Shown one piece after another: positions 47,092 through 49,683 of a stretch of DNA of 53,954 nucleotides; position 1 is the stretch's first letter, and each line of letters begins with the position of its first letter. Position numbers and translations under genes: made by a program. Under the pieces are notes generated by a model, which was not told the origin of the DNA, did not search any database, and worked only from the letters and a program-made list of their open reading frames with translations. Where the stretch lies: NCBI GenBank assembly GCA_018335035.1, contig JAGXKT010000014.1:1-53954 (forward strand). The letters run 5' to 3'. Source of the DNA: Phycisphaerae bacterium (lineage in GTDB: Bacteria; Planctomycetota; Phycisphaerae; SM23-33).

Positions 47092-47958
47092 CTACCGGGT
47101 CGGCTCCAGCAATTCGCCCACGAAATCGCCGACGGTCCGCACGAGCTCGTCGCGCGGCTTGCCGGCGTTGTCGGTGACGCGATGGACGATCGCCGAGCCG
47201 ACGATCGCGCCGTCGGCGACCTCGCAGACCGTGCGGACCGTCTGGGCTCGCGAGATGCCGAAGCCCACGCAGACCGGCGTGTCGGTATGCTCGCGCAGCT
47301 CGCGCACGGCCGCGATGGTCTCATCAGGCAACTTGTCCCGCTCGCCCGTCGTGCCCGCGACCGAGATGAAGTATATGAACCCGCGCGAGTGGCGCGCCAG
47401 CTCGTAACGCCGCTCGGGCGGCGTCGTCGGGGCAATGAGCATCACGTTGCACAGCCCGGCCTCGGCGGCGAGCGGCTCGAAATCCCCGGCCTCCTCCAGC
47501 GGCAGGTCCGGGACGATCAGCCCGTCGAACCCGGCCGCGGCGGCGTCCATGCAGAACCGCTCGCAACCGCGACGGTAGACGATCGAGTAGCTGACCATCG
47601 CCAGTAATGCCAGGTCGCAGGTCGCAGTGCCGAGGTCGGAGCGGAGCGCAGAGCCGTCCGGGGCGGGGTTGGTCGCGTCGCGGAAGCGGCGGACCGTCTT
47701 AAAGATCTGCTCGCACGTGATGCCGGCATCGAGCGCGGCCGTGTAACTGCTCTGAATGACCGGTCCGTCGGCGATCGGGTCGGAGAAGGGCACCCCCAGC
47801 TCGCAGACCCGCACGCCGCGGTCGGCGAACCCCGCCAGCAGCGCGGCCGTGGTGTCCAGGTCCGGGTAGCCCGCCGTGATAAACGGCAGCAGAGCGGATT
47901 TGCCTTTCTGCCGCAGGTCGCTGAAAGTTCTAACCAGTCTGTTATTGTCGATGCTCAT
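47092..47958 (-). CDS. trpA: tryptophan synthase alpha subunit
   Basis: The 288-residue TIM barrel cleaves indole-3-glycerol phosphate to indole and glyceraldehyde 3-phosphate. Catalytic Glu and Asp lie in CELGVPFSDPIADGP, with LIVPDLPLEE, the phosphate site GFGISRAQTV and GAIVGSAIV following. It is about 20 residues longer than E. coli TrpA because of an insertion at about residues 98-115 (NPAPDGSALRSDLGTATCD region). This insertion is encoded by repeat-like DNA in a surface region after the third helix. The frame is kept, so the enzyme is probably functional. trpB lies upstream but is separated from trpA by a GxxExxY gene. Confidence 0.95.
   Translation of the reverse strand: MSIDNNRLVRTFSDLRQKGKSALLPFITAGYPDLDTTAALLAGFADRGVRVCELGVPFSDPIADGPVIQSSYTAALDAGITCEQIFKTVRRFRDATNPAPDGSALRSDLGTATCDLALLAMVSYSIVYRRGCERFCMDAAAAGFDGLIVPDLPLEEAGDFEPLAAEAGLCNVMLIAPTTPPERRYELARHSRGFIYFISVAGTTGERDKLPDETIAAVRELREHTDTPVCVGFGISRAQTVRTVCEVADGAIVGSAIVHRVTDNAGKPRDELVRTVGDFVGELLEPTR
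47614..47667 (-). other. repeat-like in-frame insertion in trpA
   Basis: About 54 bases encode extra residues absent from typical TrpA. The DNA contains the tandem words GGTCGCA GGTCGCA, GAGGTCGGAGCGGAGCGCAGAG, which resemble short-word intergenic repeats rather than ordinary codons of neighbouring genes. Confidence 0.5.
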
Positions 47959-47980: not shown

Positions 47981-48450
47981 GCGACACAGAGCGACAGAGA
48001 AACAGAGAACCGATTCAGAAAATGACGCGCCGAAATCCGTCGATCAGTCGCTTCTGGTTGAAGTTCAGCAGCAGGCCCACGCGTTTCCGGGCGGCCTTGA
48101 GTGTGCTGCGTAACTGGGCCGTGTGCGTGTCTACAAGCACCTCCACGGACTTCAATTCCAGTACGACGGCATCGTCCACGAGCAGGTCCAGACGATGCCG
48201 GCCGACCGGTTGACCATGGTAGCTGACGTCGCAGCTGACTTGTTGTTCCACCGTGTGTCCGCGTTGCGACAGCTCTATCTTCAGAGCGTTTTCGTAGATC
48301 TGCTCCAGATCACCCGGGCCCAATTCCTTGTGGACAGCAATTGCAGCGGCGATGACCCGCTCCGTCAAATCCTTGTGCGGGTAGAGCGCTTCGTCGAATT
48401 GCTTAGCCAAGTTCTGTCGTTCTCTTTGTCCCTCTGTCGCTCTGTGTCGC
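47981..48450. mobile_element. inverted-repeat-bracketed GxxExxY unit between trpB and trpA
   Basis: A perfect 19-base sequence (GCGACACAGAGCGACAGAG, 47981-47999) recurs inverted at 48432-48450, with imperfect continuation inward (AAACAGAGAA versus GGACAAAGAGAA). The pair encloses nearly the whole GxxExxY gene. The right copy falls inside its annotated 5' coding part (about codons 7-13). No clear target duplication is seen. It fits a small insertion into a trpBA operon, but mobility is inferred. Confidence 0.5.
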
Positions 48451-48474: not shown

Positions 48475-49683
48475 TTACCCCTCAGATTGCTCGCGTCGTT
48501 CGAGTATCTCCGCGATTTCGGTGACGTCCTTGTCTCCGCGCCCGGAGAGGTTCACGAGGATGATCTCGTCGCCGCTCATGTCGGCGGCGCGGCGCATGGC
48601 CTCGGCGACGGCGTGGGCGGATTCCAACGCCGGGATGATCCCCTCGGTTTGCGACAGCGCCAGCGTCGCGCCCAGGGCCTGTGAGTCGGTGACGCTGGTG
48701 TAGGTGACGCGTCCGGAGCGTTTCCACTCGGCGTGTTCCGGGCCGACGCCGGGGTAGTCCAGCCCGGCCGAGATGCTGTGGACCGGCGCGGTCTGCCCGT
48801 CGTCGTCCTGGAGCACGAAGCTCCGCGCCCCGTGCAGCACGCCCTCGGCGCCGAGGCAGAGCGTCGCGGCGTGCTTGCCGAGCGCGGGTCCGCTGCCGCC
48901 GGCCTCGACGCCCACCATCCGCACGTCGTCGTCGATCATCGGCGCGAAGATGCCTGCGGCGTTCGACCCGCCGCCGACGCAGGCGACGATCACGTCCGGC
49001 AGCCGCCCGGGCGCGGCCAGCATCTGCCGCCGCGCCTCGCGCCCGATGCAGCACTGAAACTCGCGCACCATGGTGGGGTAGGGATGCGGCCCGCAGACCG
49101 AGCCGAGGATGTAGTGTGTCTGTTCGCAGCTCGCCATCCAGTCGCGCATCGCCTGGTTGGTGGCGTCCTTGAGCGTCCGCTGGCCGATCTCGACGGGAAT
49201 AACCCGCGCGCCGAGCAGCTCCATGCGGAGCACGTTGAGCCGCTGACGGCGCATGTCCTCGGTGCCCATGTACACGTCGCAGTCGAGCCCGAACACCGCC
49301 GCCGCCGTCGCCGTCGCTACGCCGTGTTGTCCGGCGCCGGTCTCTGCGATGACGCGCTGCTTGCCCATCCGCAGCGTCAGCAACGCCTGTCCGAGCGTGT
49401 TGTTGATCTTGTGCGCGCCGGTGTGGTTCATGTCCTCGCGCTTGAGGTAGAGCTGCGCGCCGCCGCAGCGCTCGGTCAGCCGCCGGGCGAAGTACATCTC
49501 GCTCGGCCGGCCGGCGATCTGGCGCCAGCAGCGGTCCAGCTCGGCGCGGAAGTCCGCGTCGTCCATCGCCGCGGCGAACTCGGTCGCGAGCTGGTCCAGC
49601 GCGTGCATCAGCGTCTCGGGCACGAACTGCCCGCCGTACGGGCCGAAGTAACCCGCGCGCGGTTGGTCGCTTGCGGTGCTCAT
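48475..49683 (-). CDS. trpB: tryptophan synthase beta subunit
   Basis: The 402-residue PLP enzyme joins indole and serine to give tryptophan. It has the start [29 protein letters not shown] with the PLP-binding lysine, [17 protein letters not shown], the PLP phosphate loop [10 protein letters not shown] and the monovalent-cation/serine region near the end ([12 protein letters not shown]). The length is standard for TrpB1. The start is ATG 49681-49683. TATAAC (49691-49696, minus strand) lies only 8 bases upstream, so the message may be leaderless. It heads trpB-GxxExxY-trpA. Confidence 0.96.

Follow-up and report, generated by a model that had tools for sequence, protein, structure and literature searches.

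Why should a gene for a nuclease-like protein of the GxxExxY family lie between trpB and trpA, enclosed by inverted repeats? The question was raised by a contig of a Phycisphaerae bacterium (JAGXKT010000014.1 of assembly GCA_018335035.1), whose positions 1 to 53,954 constitute the stretch analysed here, referred to below as the window. The original prediction, made from the letters of this DNA without database searches, was that the segment represents a mobile unit of very small size, which might be moved in trans. The answer we favour, with a probability of roughly three in four, is that the segment, 470 bp in the order array-gene-array, is an old copy, passed on by inheritance, of a minimal mobile unit that comprises one PD-(D/E)XK nuclease gene and two inverted arrays.

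The predicted 19-bp inverted repeat is exact: GCGACACAGAGCGACAGAG occurs at 47981-47999 on the forward strand and at 48432-48450 on the reverse strand with 0 mismatches between the copies, and no third site within 3 mismatches exists in the window. An inverted pair of this length arose in 0 of 100 dinucleotide shuffles. The inverted match continues to 28 bp at 89%, over the full extent of the arrays listed in Table 1, and none of 1460 random window positions with the same geometry scored as high (21.0 versus a maximum of 17.5). A chance repeat or an assembly artefact, which has only the shortness of the repeat in its favour, can be dismissed for practical purposes on these controls and on the recurrence of such arrays in independent genomes. 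The repeats had been described as terminal-type; they are real, but the 19-mer is not a simple terminal repeat, being instead the outer portion of a pair of arrays that mirror each other, each with three 7-bp units. The units are phased by 8 bp in the trp copy and usually by 9-10 bp at other loci. The claim that one repeat is read as the first codons of the protein stands in part. The 5' array is indeed translated in frame near the N-terminus (DTRHRATEGQR), from an ATG located 4 nt past the trpB stop and preceded by GAGGGG, but with this ATG the first codons fall outside the repeat. The frame RHRxTE(G/E)QR is kept at the trp site in two other genera (L171, L173), and an alternative start, TTG at 48410, would place the entire gene inside the arrays.

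Table 1. Features of the trpB-trpA segment and its neighbours (positions in the window)
Feature	Position	Strand	Details
3' array	47981..48008	+	CACAGAG 47985-47991, GACAGAG 47993-47999, AACAGAG 48001-48007; outer end GCGA
5' array, mirrored	48423..48450	-	CACAGAG 48446-48440, GACAGAG 48438-48432, GACAAAG 48430-48424
GxxExxY / PDDEXK_3 gene, 151 aa	48015..48470	-	catalytic-type residues GxxE, D, ExK, Q present
trpB, upstream neighbour outside unit	48475..49683	-	
trpA, downstream neighbour outside unit	47092..47958	-	

The assignment of the intervening gene to a PD-(D/E)XK-like GxxExxY family, separating trpB from trpA, was confirmed both in position and in identity. The open reading frame matches PF13366 (PDDEXK_3) with an E-value of 1.7e-37 and 128.8 bits against a cut-off of 22, and TIGR04256 (GxxExxY) with 126.1 bits against a curated cut-off of 35; these were the only matches among the Pfam and NCBIfam profiles. 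Residues E24, D64, E74, K76 and Q88 are invariant in 34 sequences, and the AlphaFold model (pLDDT 96.5) displays the PD-(D/E)XK arrangement. Structurally, the nearest proteins are Cas4-like and resolvase-type nucleases, the best match being the Cas4-like SSO0001 (Z 9.6), with others, including Hjc and BglII, at Z 6-8. Foldseek with the same model gave nothing below E 0.001, and because of these weak E-values the fold assignment is based on a VIA second look together with Pfam. Sequence searches found no solved relative (one match at chance level, E 0.06), and a scan of genome contigs with one GxxExxY protein returned no match. A role as an anti-phage defence system was considered and rejected, PADLOC 2.0.0 yielding 0 families.

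The arrangement is not peculiar to the trp site. Scoring the inverted match between the 250 bp upstream and the 250 bp downstream of the domain, with the 99th percentile of shuffles as threshold, we found 61 of 67 GxxExxY loci of relatives above threshold, as against 4 of 56 control genes at the relatives' loci. Inverted arrays were likewise present at 65 of the 79 loci from a GTDB-wide scan that spanned many phyla, among them Methanosarcinales archaea, cyanobacteria, Bacteroidota, Chloroflexota and Proteobacteria, and at 54 of 58 further loci fetched later. The genome from which the window derives contains a second GxxExxY gene (L001), also bracketed by arrays, in surroundings that we take to be an NADH-dehydrogenase/hydrogenase gene cluster. 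The unit type varies from locus to locus (CACAGAG, CGCAGAG, CACAAAG, CATGAAG, CACCAAG, CACAGAT, CGCTGAT, CACGAAT, ACAGGAT and CACGGAA are represented), yet the two arms of any one locus agree. Common outer ends are TTNACC...GGTNAA, replaced by GCGAC in the trp clade and by TGTGCC in genome G074. Units were also observed to recur at one site in different genera (L014, L037, L044, L055, L070), upstream of a presumably purQ-like gene, with types that differ between loci (CATGAAG, CACAGAG, CACAAAG) and match between the arms of each. In genus g11 (L032, L036, L058, L064), CACGGAA units lie amid long CGGCAACGGCAACGGC tracts that are partly mirrored about the gene.

The gene itself is patchily distributed, being found in 64 of 100 relatives. 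Carriage by plasmids or phages was ruled out as nearly none was found: the family occurs in only 8 of 72,556 plasmid records, and there was no match in 50,697 phages. This near absence is unusual for ordinary mobile DNA and counts against a mobile unit. Separately, two viral contigs (IMG/VR; L078, L079) were seen to carry a GxxExxY gene, with inverted arrays too.

Arrays are also widely dispersed without the gene. The pattern CACAGAGN{2,4}CACAGAG has 943 matches, distributed over 45 of the 100 relatives, and the reversed pattern has 1. Of these matches, 888 fall in the 64 genomes with a GxxExxY gene and 55 in the 36 without, and the array count rises with gene number (Spearman 0.47, p=8e-7); against the favoured reading, nine genomes have CACAGAG arrays and no detectable GxxExxY gene. 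In G032 and G074, 39 of 40 neighbouring array pairs are inverted and face each other, mostly 31-194 bp apart. The interiors of the gene-less units are mostly unrelated, so that only the arrays are common to most of them; G032 has a 215-bp non-coding family with terminal inverted repeats, whose copies, 76-90% identical, occupy different places. Nested shells of different unit types were found (L251, L263, L266), those of L263 and L266 reading CAGAT, CAGAG and GCAAAAT from the outside in. The pair is not the sole form of the arrays, since single and back-to-back arrays are common in G066, a genome of another genus. Three back-to-back arrays (L479 ~515-590, L481 ~474-565, L484 ~500-550) have GTTGAAGATCTTGAAC or GTTCAAGATCTTCAAC at their centre, their outer ends meeting around GATC, an appearance that a 4-bp target, or the junction of a circle or tandem, would give. 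The window's own genome was seen to hold gene-less pairs at L003 (1498-1665) and L004 (1384-1522), with GCGACACAGAG-type outer ends as in the trp copy.

Mirrored repeats inside a presumably transcribed operon might instead form an RNA hairpin, serving processing, stability or termination around the gene. Bases common to both arms in G074 (CACTGAG, CACCGAG) had hinted at such a pairing constraint, and the hint did not survive a within-genome permutation test: the arms are complementary, though in the gene-less units of five genomes they were no closer to each other within loci than between loci (p 0.22-0.57). We accordingly regard the hairpin as very improbable.

How the unit came to lie in the trp operon was addressed with 30 trpA loci of relatives and the window's own. 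Gene and arrays together stand between trpB and trpA at four loci (the window's own, L171, L173 and L183), each from a different genus; at L177 the arrays are present without the gene, 28 bp apart; L175 and L185 retain traces of a unit; and ten loci have a trpB-trpA gap of <40 nt and no unit. The four trp-site proteins form one clade (98% SH-aLRT), with dN values of 0.19-0.32 and dS at or beyond saturation. A fresh insertion is ruled out because the four genera carry one monophyletic copy. Judged from the supported clade and the low dN against saturated dS, the trp copy is most likely old, having entered once and been inherited, with the gene lost in some lines, and the nuclease gene is, by the same measure, under purifying selection.

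Mobility elsewhere is indicated by comparisons within and between genomes. The G073 paralogues L021 and L046 are 87% identical, and their similarity ends at the outer ends of the arrays, beyond which the neighbours are unrelated; the same limits hold against L029, L042 and L057. A gene-bearing unit found in G066 and G049 is missing from the congener G078, which has just 45 nt at that place between flanks that are 84-87% identical. Of six gene-less G074 units mapped on the sister species G052, 5 are missing and 1 is common to both. Two gene-less G066 units are absent from G049 and G040 alike and so were most simply gained in G066, and one of these two parts a pair of convergent genes whose spacing in G049 is 3 nt. 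At 79-92% flank identity, no target-site duplication could be read at the empty sites, and no excision product or circle was demonstrated, the genome pairs compared being too diverged. Five further comparisons (L023/L025, L151/L158, L016/L019, L017/L020, L029/L042) had the unit in both members and gave no clean empty site, nor did the L021 site in G103 and G110, where unrelated sequence was found. Many GxxExxY copies are inherited at fixed sites, which also tells against a mobile unit.

Two outcomes would have refuted the original prediction, namely diverged, non-repeat flanks around the same gene at the same trp position in relatives, and a lack of flanking repeats at other GxxExxY loci. Neither occurred: gene-bearing relatives keep matching arrays at the trp site, and the survey of many loci called for as a check found the repeats in all three sets given above. 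Because the units recur as packages at unrelated loci, paralogue homology stops at the outer arrays, and both gene-bearing and gene-less units are polymorphic for presence, a small mobile unit that may be moved in trans is supported at the level of sequence comparison, with excision, integration and target duplication not shown. The purifying selection and the inheritance at the same junction across genera would fit a nuclease that serves the host in repair, recombination or regulation, with the arrays as genomic binding sites kept for host benefit, and so would the near absence from plasmids and phages; the high turnover of units between sister species, their package-like duplication and the patchy presence of the gene make this explanation improbable.

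If the units are mobile, the next question is whether the enclosed nuclease is what recognises them. Placed on a phylogeny of 126 proteins, the unit type requires 27 changes, compared with 52 when shuffled; GAT-type units are almost wholly restricted to one part of the tree, and the Mantel correlation is 0.27 (null maximum 0.15). Several unit types coexist in genomes such as G063, G015, G084 and G046, where every type belongs to a separate lineage of proteins; this excludes host composition as the cause. Among alignment columns predicting GAG versus AAG units, positions 4 and 5, at the start of helix 1, lead by several orders of magnitude. Knowing residue 4 gives the fifth base of the unit correctly at 94 of 110 loci (p=5e-13), Thr going with G in 70 of 85 cases and a non-Thr residue with A in 24 of 25. 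In the later loci the agreement was 43 of 46 (p=1.6e-9; 28/31 for G, 15/15 for A), with the reservation that the extension of the rule to AAT/GAT was first seen in those loci, so that this part had no blind test; the GAG/AAG rule at position 5, fixed beforehand, held in 18 of 21. When disjoint changes are counted over the whole best tree, 12.6 are in line with the code and 0.4 run counter to it (sign test 2e-4); restricted to supported branches, five independent pairs are left, too few to reach significance. For the trp site, residues 4-5 are Thr-Glu, from which the inferred code predicts GAG-type units, as seen. The last base of the unit, G or T, correlates with the C-terminal tail, although most of this reflects a single split of the tree. 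In the orthologous loci L360 and L361 (G066 and G049; L062 is the same G066 locus), a joint switch of all six units, C(G/T)CxGAG becoming C(G/T)CGAAG, has left the site and most spacers unchanged; both proteins have Ala at residue 4, and the inferred code therefore leaves this switch unexplained. That unit type tracks the protein lineage rather than the host, and that one residue predicts one base, argues, from sequence alone, that the nuclease reads its repeats.

The same correlations bear on the chief rival. Here the mobile or repeat elements proper would be the array pairs, which some other enzyme spreads; the GxxExxY gene would be secondary, a guest whose product cuts at arrays and which thereby homes inside pairs already in place. 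Gene-less pairs are far more numerous than gene-bearing ones, the nested shells demonstrate that pairs accept insertions, and at the trp site L177 shows a pair lacking the gene, all of which speaks for such a guest. So close a match to the host array, in lineage, unit type and even a single base, is not what a guest would lead one to expect, and the paralogue homology covers arrays and gene together; we therefore consider the homing guest unlikely, although less so than the other rivals.

Under the preferred reading, of a unit whose own nuclease moves it, the packaging, its generality, the gene-less spread, the presence/absence differences, the lineage tracking and the residue-base correlation are all shown by sequence, and the steps that would connect them are inferred. 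From the covariation, the GxxExxY protein would bind the units directly, residues 4-5 at the start of helix 1 contacting base five. Protomers may occupy successive units of an array, pair across both arms and thereby bring the ends together; with its catalytic residues intact, the nuclease would then cut at or near the unit ends, and host repair would copy or join the unit into an intergenic site by a route of integration that remains open. Gene-less pairs would be served in trans by the same protein. The trp unit would have entered an ancestor of several genera, where it could be tolerated because it was placed between two cistrons, and its nuclease would have been kept by selection. A broader proposition is that GxxExxY units, spread across bacteria and archaea, constitute a class of mobile element in their own right. 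A PD-(D/E)XK nuclease acting alone would move them, recognising the phased short units through a compact residue-to-base code (at residue 4, Thr for G and a small residue for A; in the C-terminal tail, the choice of G or T as last base), and all units of a copy could switch in concert; on this proposition we are evenly divided.

In 5.4 million open papers, preprints not included, searches for the family name and the repeat strings found no association of GxxExxY proteins with arrays, although a remark in the TIGR04256 comment is not excluded, and no paper on CTCTGTG, CTTCGTG or ATCTGTG intergenic repeats. The favoured reading offers a role for a nuclease family that is very common yet uncharacterised, and a source for these intergenic repeats, which occur in environmental genomes. 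Provided that the inferred code is correct, proteins of ~120 residues would rank with the smallest nucleases whose sequence specificity can be predicted.

Several known systems share parts of this organization. Miniature inverted-repeat elements (MITEs) are likewise non-coding, with terminal inverted repeats, interiors that are sometimes common and a coding relative alongside; in contrast to a MITE and its parent insertion sequence, GxxExxY units have no known transposase or resolved target duplication, and most gene-less units are alike in their arrays only. Free-standing PD-(D/E)XK homing endonucleases are also small single-gene nuclease units, whereas in GxxExxY units the seemingly recognised repeats are internal, with an array at each end, and occur throughout the genome as well. 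The Rpn (YhgA-like) recombination-promoting nucleases are PD-(D/E)XK proteins with several copies per genome and a link to DNA mobility (PMC5350276). They belong to a different Pfam family, PF04754. We know of no flanking cognate arrays in their case. The TAACTGA heptamers of Beggiatoaceae and cyanobacteria are repeated intergenic 7-mers of unknown origin (PMC4679880); unlike GxxExxY arrays, they are direct repeats, almost never form inverted pairs and have no nuclease partner described.

By analogy, the closest counterparts are the REPINs and their RAYTs (REPtrons), in which short extragenic repeats form inverted gene-less doublets that are scattered in trans, a dedicated nuclease gene is flanked by the same repeats, and the types are lineage-specific (PMC3116915, PMC3733652). 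GxxExxY units resemble them in having the gene flanked by a dispersed extragenic repeat and inverted gene-less doublets elsewhere. They are set apart because the defining HUH tyrosine transposase is absent, its place being taken by an unrelated PD-(D/E)XK enzyme; in addition, the arms consist of about three phased 7-bp units rather than imperfect palindromes, and no pairing constraint between arms was found. REPIN-like behaviour is thus known, while the combination of this enzyme with this repeat architecture cannot be placed in any known family of mobile elements. Should the inferred code hold, spread of the REPIN kind would have evolved with another enzyme type as well, one unrelated to the RAYTs.
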